Assembly (NCBI GenBank): GCA_026018925.1
Contig: JAKSZU010000029.1
Location: 13,927,778 to 13,991,777, forward strand
Origin: Tupaia tana
Taxonomy: Eukaryota; Chordata; Mammalia; Scandentia; Tupaiidae
DNA: 64,000 nt
Direction: 5' to 3'
Part shown: piece after piece, positions 24,089-52,429 of the stretch
Numbering within the stretch: position 1 is the stretch's first letter
Layout: every line of letters begins with the position of its first letter
Notes under the pieces: generated by a model
The model's input: the letters and a program-made list of their open reading frames with translations, nothing else
Database searches by the model: none
Told to the model about the DNA's origin: nothing
Translations under genes and position numbers: made by a program

Positions 24089-24445
24089 GACACTCCCATC
24101 TTTCGACCCCTGGGCCAGGATCTTTGAGGGAGGACTGCCCCCCAGTAGCTCCAGCCCCGGGACCCCAAGCCAGACTCCCCTCTTTCAGCCAGGTACATTT
24201 TTTTCCCTTTTTTTTCTCTGTCCTGTTACCCACGTCTTTCATTTGTAAATTTCTCTCTTCTGATTAACACATAGGAACGCCCTCAGTTCATCCACACCAC
24301 ACTCCCATCTTTAGACCTCTGGGCCAGGATCTTCGAGGGAGGACTGCCCCCCAGTAGCTACAGCCCCGGGACCCCAAGCAAGACTCCCCTCTTTCAGCCA
24401 GGTACATTTTTTTCCCTTTTTTTTTCTCTGTCCTGTTACCCACGT
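24089..24445 (+). promoter_or_regulatory. L1-C promoter monomers
   Basis: The first unit (from about 24091) and the second (from about 24301) each read CCATCTTT(C/A)GACC(C/T)CTGGGCCAGGATC. Both are of the long type, with the GTACATTT...-containing segment. The second merges with the downstream leader (GACTTTTTCTTTATTC) inside that segment. Confidence 0.8.
24193..24274 (+). other. Intron-like segment in L1-C monomer (82 nt)
   Basis: Begins CAG|GTACATTT and ends AACACATAG|GAACG, with a T/C-rich interior and a candidate branch site CTGAT. This is the segment that is precisely missing from the short monomers of L1-D. Confidence 0.6.
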
Positions 24446-24789
24446 GCGACTTTTTCTTTATTCTACATATTATTTTCTTCCCAGTTTCTCAATTTTCACT
24501 TCCTTTATCTGAACCATCCCTGGCTGTCCAGATAGGTCTAGAATTACAATTCTGAAACATTCTAGCATTTTAAGACTCTCTAGAATCCTCCATTTCCCTG
24601 AAACACCTGCGAAGAAGGAGATACATTTCTTTGGACACCTGAAGAGAATACTTTTTCTTGGATTACATTACTAAACACAGTTGAAGATAGACTTGGGCTG
24701 TCTACATTCCACATCAGAAAGGAAACACACTTGCTCCTATTAGAAGAAACCTTCTCATAAAAGGTCTTTCAAAGGGAACACATCTCCCA

Positions 24790-26028
24790 ATGGTTAGAAG
24801 TACAAGAACCTCAGGCCTGAATAAAGCAGGAAATATATCTCCATCAAAGGAACACAGTAACTCCCTTCCTGTTCCTGAAAAAATAGAGGACATTACCAAA
24901 ATGTCCGAGATAGAGTTTAGAACATTCATGTTGAACAAGTACTATGAGCTGGAACAGAAAAGAGACAATGAATTACAGGAGATGAGAAAGTCCTTCAGTG
25001 ATATGAAGGAAGAAATTCTGAGGAAGAATAAAACAGAACTATTAGAGGTGAAGTCTGAAATACAGGAAATCAAAAACTCTCTTGAAAATATTAAAAGTCG
25101 ATTAGACCATGCTGAAGGTTGAATCTCTGATGTAGAAGATAAAACTTCTGACCTAGAGAAAACCACCAAAAAGATAGAGAAAATAACAAAAAAAACATGA
25201 AGATAACATACGAGAATTACTAGATTCCATTAGACGTCCTAACGTCCAGATAATTGGTATCCCAGAAGGTGAAGAAACTAATAAGAGCATGGAAAACCTA
25301 TTCCATGAAATCTTGGAAGAAAATTTCCCAAGCATAGAGAGGCACTCCAACATCCAGACCCAAGAAATACAAAGGACCCCAAATAGAATCAACCCAAGAA
25401 GATCTTCCCCAACGCATATCATAGCCAGACTGTCTAAGACCACAGATAGAGATAAGATACTAAAACTGGCAAGAGAGAAACGACAAGTGACTTACAAAGG
25501 TCACCCCATCAGGCTAACACCGGACTTCTCAACGGAAACAATGCAAGCAAGGAAAGAATGGGAAGATGTATCGAAAGTGTTAAGAGAGAAACAATTTCAA
25601 CCAAGACTATTGTATCCTGCAAGATTATCCTTCATATGAGAGAAAAAGATTAAAATATTTTTTTATTTTTTTGTGAGGTTTTTCGCTATAGGGCGCGTGC
25701 GCTCGCCAGACAGACAGAGAGAGACAGAGAGACAGAAAGCGAGAAATCACCCCCCGGGGGGATGGTCACGCCGCAATCCCTTCTCCTCCATTCTCCTCTT
25801 GGGATCTTGGGCACGCACGCACACGCGCCCGGCGTGAGTTGTAAGCCACCGGGTCCGAGACGTGAACCGCGGTCGACTACGTGGGAGTCCAGCGACATAG
25901 CCATTACGCTAACTGCTGGTTCCCAAAAGATTAAAATCTTCTCAGACAAACAGAACCTGAAAGAATTTGCCAGCACCAGGCCAGCTCTCCATGAAACCCT
26001 GAAGAAAGTACTGTTCCAGGAAAACTAA
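24790..26028 (+). pseudogene. L1-C ORF1, split by a SINE
   Basis: Starts MVRSTRTSGLNKAGNISPSKEH, an N-terminus unlike L1-B. The coiled coil (MSEIEFRTFMLNKYYELEQKRDNE) runs to a TGA at 25120-25122, the same stop as in L1-D. The RRM-like part (MENLFHEILEENFPSIERH) is open from 25289. A one-base excess near 25190 and a second TGA near 25637 add damage. A SINE occupies 25657-25924, then the C-terminus resumes (KQNLKEFASTRPALHETLKKVLFQEN). It is not functional. Confidence 0.9.
25657..25924 (-). repeat. Young SINE in L1-C ORF1
   Basis: Near-consensus copy. TSD AAAAGATTAAAAT at 25644-25656 and 25925-25937. It is later than L1-C and absent from the same position in L1-D. Confidence 0.93.
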
Positions 26029-36862: not shown

Positions 36863-37357
36863 AAAGAAAGAGAGGAGATCTTTCGACCCCTGGGCCAGGA
36901 TCTCCGAGGGAGGACTGCCGCCCAGTAGTTCCAGCCCTGGGACCCCCAGGCCAGAGCCCCCTCTTTCAGCCAGGAACGCCCTCAGTTCATCCACACCACA
37001 CCCCCATCTTTCGACCCCTGGGCCAGGATCTCCGAGGGAGGACTGCCCCCCAGTAGTTCCAGCCCCAGGACCCCCAGGCCAGAGCCCCCTCTTTCAGCCA
37101 GGAAAGCCCTCAGTTCATCCACACCACACCCCCATCTTTCGACCCCTGGGCAAGGATCTCCGAAGGAGGACTGCCCCCCAGTAGTTCCAGCCCCAGGACC
37201 CCCAGGCCAGAGCCCCCTCTTTCAGCCAGGAACGCCCTCAGTTCATCCACACCACACCCCCATCTTTCGACCCCTGGGCCAGGATCTCCGAGGGAGGACT
37301 GCCCCCCAGTAGTTCCAGCCCCGGGACTCCCAGGCCAGAGCCCCCTCTTTCAGCCAG

Positions 37358-37447
37358 GTACATTTTTTTTTCCTTTTTTTTTTTCTTTCTCTGTCCTGTT
37401 ATCCACATCTTTCCATTGTAAATTTCTCTCTTCTGATCAACACACAG
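37358..37447 (+). other. Intron-like segment, long monomer 4 (90 nt)
   Basis: CAG|GTACATTTTT...CTGATCAACACACAG|GAACG: GT start, AG end, long T/C tract, candidate branch site CTGAT. Absent from the three upstream monomers. Confidence 0.7.
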
Positions 37448-37575
37448 GAACGCCCTCAGTTCATCCACACCACACCCCCATCTTTCGATCCCTGGGCCAG
37501 GATCTCCGAGGGAGGACTGCTCCCCAGTAGTTCCAGCCCCAGAACCCCCAGGCCAGAGACCCCTCTTTCAGCCAG

Positions 37576-37663
37576 GTACATTTATTTTCCTTTTTTTTTT
37601 CTTTCTCTGTCCTGTTATCCACATCTTTCAATTGTAAATTTCTCTCTTCTGATCAACACACAG
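37576..37663 (+). other. Intron-like segment, long monomer 5 (88 nt)
   Basis: Same boundaries and interior as the segment in monomer 4. Confidence 0.7.
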
Positions 37664-37791
37664 GAACGCCCTCAGTTCATCCACACCACACCCCCATCTT
37701 TCGACCCCTGGGCCAGGATCTCCGAGGGAGGACTGCCCCCCAGTAGTTCCAGCCCTGGGAACCCCAGGCCAGAGCCCCCTCTTTCAGCCAG

Positions 37792-37879
37792 GTACATTTT
37801 TTTTCCTTTTTTTTTTCTTTCTCTGTCCTTTTATCCACATCTTTCAATTGTAAATTTCTCTCTTCTGATCAACACACAG
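37792..37879 (+). other. Intron-like segment, long monomer 6 (88 nt)
   Basis: Same boundaries and interior. This is the last unit before the leader. Confidence 0.7.
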
Positions 37880-38296
37880 GAACGCCCTCAGTTCATCCAC
37901 ACCACACCCCCATCTTTCGACCCCTGGCGAAATCGCGCGCTGTGTGCGGCGTGCAACTTTTTCTTTATTCTACATATTATTTTCTTCCCAGTTTCCGAAT
38001 CCTCACATCCTTTATCTGCACCATCCCTGGATGTCCAGATAGGTCTAGAATTACAATTCTGAAACATTCTAGCATTTTAAGACTCTCTAGAGTCCTCCAG
38101 TTCCCTGAAACACCTGTGAAGAAGGAGATACATTTCTTTGGACACCTGAAGTGAATACTTTTTCTTGGTTTATATTACTAAACACAATTGAAGATAGACT
38201 TCGGCTCTCTCCCTTCCATATCAGAAAGGAAACACACTTGTTTCTATTAGAAGAAACCTTCTCGTAAAAGGTTTTTCAAAGGGAACACATCTCCCA

Positions 38297-39249
38297 ATGG
38301 GTAGAAGTACAAGAACCTCAGGCCTGAATAAAGCAGGAAATATGTCTCCATCAAAGGAACACAGTAACTCCCTTCCTGTTCCTGAAAAAATTGAGGATGT
38401 TACCAAAATGTCCGAGATAGAGTTTAGAACATTAATGTTGAACAAGTACTATGAGCTGGAACAGAAAAGAGACAATGAATTACAGGAGATGAGAAAGTCC
38501 TTCAGCGATATGAAGGAAGAAATTCTGAGGAAGAATAATACAGAACTATTAGAGGTGAAGTCTGAAATACAGGAAATCAAAAACTCTCTTGAAAGTATTA
38601 AAAGTCGATTAGACCATGCTGAAGGTTGAATCTCTGATGTAGAAGATAAAACTTCTGACCTAGAGAAAACCACCAAAAAGAGAAAATAACAAAAAAACAT
38701 GAAGATAATATACGAGAATTACTAGATTCCATTAGACGTCCTAACGTCCGCATAATTGGTATCCCAGAAGGTGAAGAAACTAATAAGAGCATGGAAAACC
38801 TATTCCATGAAATCTTGGAAGAAAATTTCCCAAGCATAGAGAGGCCCTCCAACATCCAGACCCAGGAAATTCAAAGGACACCAAATAGAATCAACCCAAG
38901 AAGATCTTCCCCAAGGCATATCATAGCCAGACTGGCTAAGACCACAGATAGAGATAAGATACTAAAACTAGCAAGAGAGAAACGACAAGTGACTTACAAA
39001 GGTCACCTCATCAGGCTAACACCGGACTTCTCAACGGAAACAATGCAAGCAAGGAAAGAATGGGAAGATGTATCGAAAGTGTTAAGAGAGAAACAATTTC
39101 AACCAAGACTATTGTATCCTGCAAGATTATCCCTCATATGGGAAAAAAAGATTAAAATCTTCTCAGACAAACAAAACCTGAAAGAATTTGCCAGCACCAG
39201 GCCAGCTCTCCATGAAACCCTGAAGAAAGTACTGTTCCAGGATAACTAA
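38297..39249 (+). pseudogene. L1-D ORF1
   Basis: Starts MGRSTRTSGLNKAGNMSPSKEH. The coiled-coil part runs to TGA 38627-38629 (the L1-C stop). A 4-nt loss near 38680 shifts the frame relative to L1-C. From 38791 an open stretch carries the RRM-like end (MENLFHEILEENFPSIERP) and the complete C-terminal domain to VLFQDN. The expected product is the L1 RNA chaperone; this copy is not functional. Confidence 0.92.
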
Positions 39250-43436: not shown

Positions 43437-43463
43437 TTATAAAAAAAAAAAAAGAAAGAGAGG

Positions 43464-43565: not shown

Positions 43566-43788
43566 AATGTGGAGAGATCAATTTATCCACTGAAAATCAT
43601 TAATTGGAGCATTTCAACCATGGAAGTAATTTTAAAAATTATCATTTAATTATTTATCCCAGTATGAATGCATTGTATGTTGGTACAAATTTATTAACAT
43701 ATACATTATCTTTGTCAGGAAAAGTTACTACTTTTTGTGAACTGTGTGAACCTACTGTGAGCTATTCTGAGAGACAAATGAGTCACAG

Positions 43789-43808
43789 TAATTTTTTTTT
43801 CCTGGTAG
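43789..43808 (+). promoter_or_regulatory. Candidate splice acceptor before OR coding exon
   Basis: T9-CCTGGTAG ends 13 nt before the start position of the OR frame. OR genes usually have an untranslated upstream exon spliced just before a single coding exon. The paired pseudogene keeps a similar acceptor (CCTCCGATAG in reverse near 52302-52311). An in-frame TAA at 43789-43791 lies within it, so nothing upstream can be read through without splicing. Confidence 0.5.
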
Positions 43809-43821
43809 TCACGTCCATCAC

Positions 43822-44793
43822 CTGGAACCAGATAATGATACAAGAATTTCAGATTTTCTTCTTTTGGGACTTTCAGAAGAACCAGAATTACAGCCCCTCC
43901 TATTTGGGATTTTCCTCTCCATGTACCTGCTCACCATGATTGGAAACCTGCTCATTATCCTGGCCATCATTTCTGATTCTCACCTGCACACCCCCATGTA
44001 CTTCTTCCTCTCCAACCTGTCCTTCATAGACATCTGTTTCACCTCCACCACTATTCCAAAGATGCTGGTAAACATCCAGACACAGAGCAAGGTCATCACT
44101 TATGCAGGCTGCGTCACCCATATGTACTTCTTCATGCTCTTCATAGCATTAGGTGACTTTCTCCTAGCAGTGATGGCCTATGACCGGTATGTGGCCATCT
44201 GTCACCCTCTACACTACACGGTCATCATGAACCCTCAGCTCTGTGTGTTGCTAGTTCTTTTTTCCTGGATTGTGAGTGTACTGATTTCATTATTACATAC
44301 CTTAATGACATTGCAGCTGTCCTTTTGTACACGAGTGGAAATCTCCCATTTTTTCTGTGAACTTAATCAAGTGGTCCACCTTGCCTGCTCTGACACTTTT
44401 CTTAATGACATGGTGATCTACTTTGCATCTCTGCTGCTGGTTGGTGGTCCATTCTCTGGGATTCTTTACTCTTACTGTAAGATAGTTTCCTCTATTCATG
44501 CAATCTCATCAGCTCAGGGAAAGTATAAAGCATTTTCCACCTGTGCCTCTCACCTCTCAGGTGTCTCTTTATTTTATAGTACAATTATAATTGTGTACCT
44601 TAGTTCTTCTGTTATCCACAATTCTCACTCAAGTGCAGCAGCCTCAGTGATGTATACCTTGGTCATACCCATGCTGAACCCTTTCATCTACAGTCTGAGG
44701 AACAAAGATGTAAAGACAGCTCTGAGAAATTTCCTGTGGAGGAAAACTATTAATAGATCAACTTTCCTCATAATGAAGAAATGTGCTTGTTAG
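43822..44793 (+). CDS. Olfactory receptor, family 7-like, start codon lost (ATG to CTG)
   Basis: A single-exon rhodopsin-class odorant receptor of the olfactory cilia membrane, coupled to the Golf/cAMP pathway. The frame is open for 323 codons from CTG at 43822 to TAG at 44791-44793. Residues, counting CTG as 1: N-glycosylation site N5-D-T; TM1 around [21 protein letters not shown] in the TM2 region; conserved Cys 97; [15 protein letters not shown] from 118; SFC and CEL in the second extracellular loop; [10 protein letters not shown] from 236; [16 protein letters not shown] from 283. The peptide following the first codon ([26 protein letters not shown]) is the standard family-7 N-terminus, so CTG sits where ATG should be. 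The first in-frame ATG is 43921 (residue 34, inside TM1). Either it is a new pseudogene or the start comes from CTG or an upstream exon. A paired, decayed copy lies at 51367-52290 on the minus strand. Confidence 0.9.
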
Positions 44794-45179
44794 CAGGACT
44801 GAAAGCATCAGGAAATAATGGTGAAAATCCATCCAGATTCTGGAAGTGGATTTTTTCCATTCAGTTATATCCTGGATTGTCCATACCTTTGTTTTCAACC
44901 TCTCTATTTAATATAAATACTTTGCTTTTCCACTCTGATATCTAGATAGTTTTTTCCTTTGTTCATTTTTGTATTTTCACAAGGTTATCCCAACCATAGA
45001 TCCGAAATACTTGGAAATCCCCATTAATATCATGGAGCAACATGAATTTGTTAAAAATATTTTTCTGCATGACACATACTGAATAAGTTTTCCTTTATTC
45101 TATGAAAATATCATATGCTGTACTTTATTTATGGGAACAAGATAACTACAATGGATTGCTAAGGTCAAAAATATAATTC

Positions 45180-51165: not shown

Positions 51166-51366
51166 CTTAACATATAATTTTACACTTTGGGATCTGTTAA
51201 ATATTTTATCATAGAAATTCTAGGAGATAATCAAATAAAACAAGTTCTACTTCCAGACTCTAATCAAGTATTCACCATTTCTGCCTCTGGTGCTTTGAGT
51301 CACATTAACAAGTGCAATTCTGCACTTCTTCAGTACCAGGATCATTTATGATTTGATAGTTTCCCT

Positions 51367-52290
51367 TCAAAGGAGACTTCTCAGAGCCCTCATTATGTCT
51401 TTATTCTTCAAACTGTAGATGAAGGGGTTCAGTATGGGTGTGGCCACACTACACATCATTGAGGCTGTTGTACTAGAGTGTGAGTTGTAGGTATTAGTAG
51501 AACTAAGGTCCACACTTATCATTGTACAATAAAATAAAGAAACAACCAAGAGATGAGAAGTACAGATGGAAAATACTTTGTACTTCCCCTGAGTTGATGA
51601 GATTGAATGAAGGGAGGAAACTATCTTATAGTAAGAATAAAGGATCCCAGTGAAGGGACTGCCAGCTAGCACTACAGAGGTAAAATAGATCACTATGTCA
51701 TTAATAAATGTGTCAGAGAAGGCAAGGAGGCCACCTGATTAAGTTCACAAAAATAATGTGGGATTTCCAATGGCATACAGATGGAGAGTCGCAACACCAT
51801 TAAGCTATGTAACAATGAAATCAGGACAGTCATGACCCAGGACAATAGAATCAGCAAGACACCAAGCCAAGGGTTCATGATGACAGTGTAGTGTAGAGAG
51901 TGAGAAATCTCTAAAAACCAGCCATAGGCCATCACAGTGAGGAAGATGTTATCCAATCCTGTAAAGAATAGGAAAAAAGAACATCTAGGTGATGCAGACT
52001 GTGTAGGTGATGACCTTGCTCTGTGTCTGGATGTTCACCAGCATCTTTGCGACAGTGGTGGAGGTGAGACCAATGTCCACAAGGGATAGGCTGGAGAGGA
52101 AGAAGTACATAGGGGTATGCAGCTGGGAGTCTGAGATGTGGCCAGGATGATAAGCAGGTTTCCAATCACAGTGATCATGTACATGATCAGGAAAATCCCA
52201 TATAGGAGGGGCTGAAATTTGGGTTTCCCTGAAAAATCCAGAAGAAGAAATTCTAAAATTCTTGTGTCATTCTCTTGTTTTATGTGATAG
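51367..52290 (-). pseudogene. Olfactory receptor pseudogene, partner of the 43.8-kb gene
   Basis: Reverse frames give an N-terminus without ATG (ATA at the start position; then NDTRI and [10 protein letters not shown]). A frameshifted TM1-TM3 region follows at about 51932-52165. Then comes [24 protein letters not shown], in which the DRY motif is YGW, then SFC-type loop sequence ([18 protein letters not shown]). The last part is open: [27 protein letters not shown] to [22 protein letters not shown] (51367-51693). At least two frameshifts, near 51693 and 51940, make it a pseudogene. It is the inverted copy of 43822-44793. Confidence 0.88.
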
Positions 52291-52429
52291 AAGTTACTAT
52301 CGGAGGAAAGAAACTAAAGCAACTATTTCGCTCAAAATGGCTCACATAGTTGGCTAACACAGTTCACAAAATTACATATTTCAATTCTACAGTTTATGAC
52401 TTGAGTAAAGAAATTAATAGCTGTGTTTT

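Follow-up and report, generated by a model that had tools for sequence, protein, structure and literature searches.

The window analysed here is a 64,000-nt stretch of the Tupaia tana genome (contig JAKSZU010000029.1, positions 13,927,778–13,991,777), and positions are counted from its first letter. It contains an L1 element of ~6.6 kb, whose features are all given on the forward strand. The element has a 13-nt target site duplication (TSD), AAAGAAAGAGAGG, at both ends, with the 5′ copy at 36863–36875 and the paired 3′ copy at 43451–43463, directly after the A-rich tail. Its 5′ UTR is an array of six promoter monomers, namely three short units of 128 bp (36878–37005, 37006–37133 and 37134–37261) followed by three long units of 218 bp (37262–37479), 216 bp (37480–37695) and 216 bp (37696–37911). 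A partial monomer of 16 nt (37912–37927) adjoins the linker (37928–38296), which is unspliced in this copy and leads to ORF1, whose ATG was placed by eye at 38297. The order of monomers, linker and ORF1 is that of a monomeric L1 and was found both in the window and in the sampled copies from elsewhere in the genome. Unit parsing confirmed the two length classes of the original prediction, in the order S S S L L L (S, short; L, long), and the periods reported by Tandem Repeats Finder (128 and 216) match the unit lengths. The array had been predicted to start at 36876; the first unit begins 2 nt later.

The long units differ from the short ones by one GT…AG segment of 88–90 nt at CAG/G, where the slash marks the junction. 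This segment, the putative intron, occupies 37358–37447 in monomer 4 (90 nt, GTACAT…ACACAG), 37576–37663 in monomer 5 (88 nt) and 37792–37879 in monomer 6 (88 nt). All three segments start with CAG/GTACAT and end with ACACAG/GAACG, and skipping them yields the exact short-unit junction in each of the three long units, as the original prediction had stated. With a rough consensus score, the donors of the three introns are the three best-scoring donors of the window 5′ UTR. Two acceptors in the linker (37976–37992, first exon base 37992; 38206–38225, first exon base 38225) also score well in this way, and the monomer's own acceptor is modest. The monomer donor differs from the consensus at +4 and +5. 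The proposed branch site CTGAT is doubtful, since a branch point would not usually lie as near to the acceptor AG as ~12 nt; a different A further upstream may serve instead. The tetranucleotide CAGG is common to both intron ends, and CCAG is common to the donor and the first linker acceptor. Because of such microhomology, each junction taken alone, that of the monomer and that at the first linker acceptor, could also result from a DNA-level deletion; in the monomers, slippage or end joining between the flanking CAGG repeats would remove the segment unit by unit. The same CAGG on both sides could also be read as the target duplication of a segment inserted later into ancestral short units.

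A diverged L1 of the same kind lies at 24090–24443 on the forward strand and comprises one long monomer, from 24098, plus a second unit that is cut inside the insert and joined to the linker. The segment is also present in its long monomer (24193–24274, 82 nt, with the end placed by eye). At 24402–24450, the last monomer is cut within the intron and fused to the linker, a boundary unlike that of the copy at 36878, and the last donor could pair only with a linker acceptor. A SINE-like element of ~270 bp, repeated in the window (25658–25924 and elsewhere), breaks into this second L1 at 25658. The window also holds an inverted pair of 77% identity (43733–44884 and 51211–52371), of which the first member resembles an olfactory receptor gene by eye.

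The genome containing the window (2.95 Gb) was searched for the junctions at ≤1 mismatch. The short junction gave 3433 matches (0 with the reversed-pattern control) and the long donor site 10550 (1 with the control), counts that vary with the mismatch limits but far exceed chance. Among the 100 short-junction places listed, 78 fall in one array of ~52 kb on C66. A chosen, non-random set of 20 stretches around the best matches comprised 15 with long units only and five (L009–L013) with mixed arrays. In the 207 short units that were parsed, the junction stays at one position in all of the 40 most frequent forms printed, bar point changes, so that the varying junction position named beforehand as evidence against splicing did not appear.

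If the segment is removed by splicing, the same donor should sometimes be joined to an acceptor between the array and ORF1. Such joins were found for both linker acceptors. The join CTTTCAGCCAG/TTTC…, which uses the acceptor at 37992, occurs at 18 other places in the genome (14 exact), and the join CTTTCAGCCAG/AAAGG…, which uses the acceptor at 38225, at three (2 exact); the reversed-pattern control gave 0 for each. The two exact joins to the second acceptor proved on retrieval to lie in L1 copies; the remaining place has 2 mismatches. The donor- and acceptor-bounded internal gap that characterises SpIREs, which are re-inserted spliced L1s, is seen here through the junctions CAG/GAACG, CAG/TTTC and CAG/AAAGG. 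The share of spliced linkers at the first acceptor (18 joined versus 242 unjoined places) is a rough one, since the search patterns were unlike and the 242 may include copies truncated 5′ of the monomers.

The joined copies differ from the others in the units that precede the linker. In the fetched stretches, 38 short and 6 long units lie upstream of the 18 first-acceptor joins, two of the long ones in L033 and four in L045, and the two second-acceptor joins are preceded by five short units and no long one. The unit nearest to the first-acceptor join is short in 14 copies, long in one and absent in three. Of the 101 last units that adjoin an intact linker start, 97 are long and four short. The contrast (14:1 versus 4:97) corresponds to a Fisher p of ~1e-13, although related copies are not independent. 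The copy L029 is a fully spliced 5′ UTR, with ten short units, a linker join, a 16-nt TSD and an A-rich tail, and L033 contains both kinds in the order S L S L S S S. The exception, L045, has a spliced linker beneath an array of long units only. Its four long units were counted in a 1.25-kb stretch at the end of a giant array, of which the neighbouring stretch, L022, contributes a further 45 parsed long units; the ratio of 38:6 would reverse if this array were counted whole, but the count per copy is unaffected.

These counts bear on deletion and on gain of the segment. A deletion acting unit by unit is favoured by the CAGG on either side of the segment, by the CCAG that donor and first linker acceptor have in common, and by L045, which has a linker join without loss in the upstream units. 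It is largely refuted, however, by the company in which removal from the linker is found, with removal from the nearest unit in 14 of 15 copies, and in all five units of two more, as against 4 of 101. Deletion also leaves it unexplained that the partners of the join are acceptor-like, and we regard it as extremely improbable. The idea that short units are ancestral and gained the segment draws on the flanking CAGG, but an insertion makes no donor-to-linker junctions, and the units beside an intact linker start are overwhelmingly long. Splicing accounts for both kinds of junction. Against it stand the four copies that end in a short unit before an unspliced linker, the mixture of both kinds of unit in L033, the long units of L045, and the off-consensus donor and modest acceptor of the monomer.

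Most of the copies with a spliced linker that were checked carry the marks of separate insertions. A TSD of 10–21 nt next to an A-rich tail, as in SpIREs, was found in 14 of the 17 copies whose 3′ ends were fetched, a set that excludes L045; three of these TSDs are only 10 nt long, and none was found in L040, L042 and L043. Thirteen TSDs were called by script beside an A-rich stretch. The fourteenth, that of L033, was assigned by eye as AAAAGGGAGGTGTG after the match proposed by the script, which lay away from the tail, had been dropped. The window copy also has such a duplication, of 13 nt. In L029, L032, L034 and L035, an extra G that is absent from the monomer at that point follows directly after the TSD, near the unit start; in L044, the same G appears only when the TSD is lengthened by eye. 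An extra 5′ G would fit a capped full-length RNA. The TSDs argue further against deletion within existing copies, and the original proposal that a multi-monomer transcript was spliced and then re-inserted is supported by them together with the donor-to-linker joins and the short units that accompany these.

A related possibility is that spliced L1 RNA or cDNA served as a repair template within existing arrays. The irregular order of short and long units in mixed arrays would be in keeping with it, and a paper on the repair of breaks from RNA templates in human cells uses the term "intron loss" 28 times (PMC12065846). The TSDs mark most of the spliced-linker copies as insertions instead, and the repeated order of units on C66 is already accounted for by block duplication, as described below. 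Such repair is compatible with splicing and re-insertion and may act besides, but as the source of the short units within existing arrays we consider it quite unlikely.

Whether the short units go back to one event can be judged from the monomer types. Six sites separate the L1 at 24098 from the units of the window copy, and four of the six (27, 72, 79 and 80) split the sampled monomers, with few stray letters, into types termed older, middle and younger according to their presumed age. Short units are found in the older (L034, L040, L043, L065), middle (L037, L038, L046) and younger type (e.g. L029–L031, L035, L041). Long units are likewise found in the older (the window L1 at 24098 and L065), middle (L069, L070) and younger type (L001, L066–L068). 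The presence of both states in each of the three types refutes the gain of the segment for the types sampled, and its overall probability is next to nil; the prior expectation under which splicing would have failed, that short units are ancestral, was not borne out.

A tree was calculated from 28 linkers, 18 spliced and 10 unspliced; the latter are seven fetched for the purpose, L001, L012 and that of the second L1 of the window. L018, whose internal linker gap spoils the alignment, was excluded, and L071 and L072 are also outside the tree. A single spliced clade was rejected (p-AU 6e-5). The tree requires 8 state changes, at least three of them forced by well-supported branches, and among these 28 linkers the changes are not fewer than with shuffled labels. 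Since they are no fewer than expected from shuffling, and since a single gain followed by two losses may account for the three that are forced, the tree shows scatter and gives no count of events; a loss on it would require the intron to be regained exactly. Splicing and re-insertion have recurred, because three monomer types hold both states and a single spliced clade is rejected. The long form looks like the persistent state, with the short form arising repeatedly. A tendency for short units to come first (S S S L L L in the window, S L in L066 and L067) was dropped as a rule in this small sample, as it is broken by L065 (S L S) and L033.

A single origin, in which one founding short monomer gave rise to all others through L1 amplification and unequal exchange, was weighed against these data and against the relationships among units. 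For this comparison, the 96-nt and 32-nt parts of each unit were projected separately; a whole-unit MAFFT alignment misplaced the gap, created false diagnostic sites and was discarded. In a set of 298 units, taken from the mixed arrays and from the window, a unit and its closest relative share the same state in 92% of cases versus 58% after shuffling, as a single origin would have it. Short and long units nevertheless share one common consensus, and their mean distances are alike (0.072 between short units, 0.068 between short and long, 0.062 between long). Together with the diagnostic letters of three types in the short units and the rejected clade, this makes a single origin for all short monomers very improbable. 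For the copies inside C66, the argument for one origin is valid. A run of 10 equal short-unit spacings recurs there at an offset of 22.6 kb, and 300 shuffles reach runs of no more than 7. Because this run recurs beyond what shuffling yields, at least the giant mixed C66 array grew through the copying of DNA blocks, and the alternative in the original prediction, later amplification of a spliced unit, holds as well, for this array at least.

Satellite-like monomer arrays of ~10 to 52 kb (as fetched or listed), composed of long units only or mixed, were seen at loci L009–L028, on C66 (0.2–52.6k), C419 (8.258–8.278 Mb), C707 (46–76k), C660 (42–51k), C797, C1065, C650 and C785. Three long arrays (L012, L018, and L022 with L045) end in an L1 linker and ORF1, and for that reason we regard them as overgrown L1 promoters. 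L018, on C660, is a long-unit array whose linker, at about 50.9 kb of C660, starts normally and has an internal gap to about linker position 113 that removes the first linker acceptor. In the long-unit arrays L019–L021 (C797), the full A segment of a unit is often preceded by an additional, partial one, which is perhaps another monomer variant.

The introns retained in mixed arrays (89 units) were compared with those of pure arrays (581 units) for splice-site damage. In the mixed arrays, GT is kept in all 89 units as printed, and the last G is either G or unaligned. The main difference on the donor side is a C-to-T change at −3 (15% versus <2%), which was set aside as evidence, since it may be a single amplified variant.

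We are highly confident that the short monomers arose when monomer introns were spliced from multi-monomer RNA that was then re-inserted, and that the C66 array was later amplified as DNA. Each monomer would carry a short, leaky spliceosomal intron of 88–90 nt, CAG/GTACAT…ACACAG/G, and a transcript begun at an upstream monomer would contain several such introns and two linker acceptors before ORF1. Some transcripts would be spliced monomer by monomer, in some or all of their monomers, and in the more fully spliced RNAs the last donor would also be joined to a linker acceptor. Target-primed reverse transcription by the L1 would then insert the RNA, each removed intron leaving a 128-bp monomer in DNA. 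At one locus at least, C66, a mixed array later expanded at the DNA level, to a block of ~52 kb. This reading builds on the junctions, their co-occurrence, the TSDs and A-rich tails, the recurrence in three types and the C66 block duplication, all of which were observed; the existence of spliced RNA, the sequence in which introns leave a partly spliced transcript and any influence on the strength of the promoter are inferred. The window copy, with three short units, three long units and an unspliced linker, most likely stems from partial splicing, either of its own RNA or of that of a parent copy.

Human SpIREs are L1 copies whose RNA was spliced, inside the 5′ UTR or on into ORF1, before it was re-inserted, and they make up 131 of 6609 full-length copies (~2%); as far as excerpts of the source go, they use one donor, G98U99, lose sequence required for transcription and are termed dead on arrival (PMC5860796). 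One of them later co-opted a gene promoter, according to an excerpt of PMC13174262. Like these, the copies described here are spliced L1 RNAs re-inserted with a TSD and an A tail, use a donor in the 5′ UTR and form a minor share of copies. Unlike in the human case as excerpted, a donor and an acceptor are present in every long monomer, a single RNA can lose several introns, and 128 of the 216 nt of a monomer survive. The mouse element L1spa (Tf) resembles the present L1 in its monomer array and linker (tether) before ORF1 and in splicing within the array into the tether. Excerpts of PMC9022269 report cryptic donors predicted in two of its monomers (M8, M7), with the acceptors located in M1 and in the tether, and, citing Belancio 2006, 22 genomic copies possibly derived from such splicing. 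The mouse donors lie in two monomers with acceptors elsewhere, and these excerpts do not describe a unit-by-unit intron or an array of two unit lengths. Splice sites of mouse L1, above all on the antisense strand, are the subject of PMC2176070 by its excerpt. TE-derived satellite arrays, as excerpted from PMC6947457, are alike in that element sequence has turned into tandem repeats, but the short and long units here mirror splicing states. Judged by title and the start of the abstract, and with most subscription papers outside the scope, the literature searches brought up nothing on introns repeated in each monomer or on arrays whose short and long units stem from splicing.

It seems unlikely to us that the monomer intron has a function in the L1 life cycle and is maintained for it, instead of being an accident. 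If it were, intron-bearing transcripts could ease export or expression, or soften the HUSH-type silencing of intronless transcripts; the HUSH part is weakened by the limited or absent protection that short introns give, as stated in excerpts of PMC8770142. Spliced copies could then also be promoters and found lineages, with 128 of 216 nt left, and the 128 nt retained per monomer may still be a putative promoter.

An intron in each promoter repeat is odd for a retrotransposon, as it can be lost whenever the element passes through RNA. Even so, the long form has persisted in all three sampled monomer types of this L1 while short ones keep arising. The array would be a DNA record of the splicing of one RNA, intron by intron, and splicing followed by re-insertion would be a new way for the length and make-up of L1 promoter arrays to change. 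Such arrays would also put to the test, in a natural setting, whether a monomer remains a promoter once spliced.
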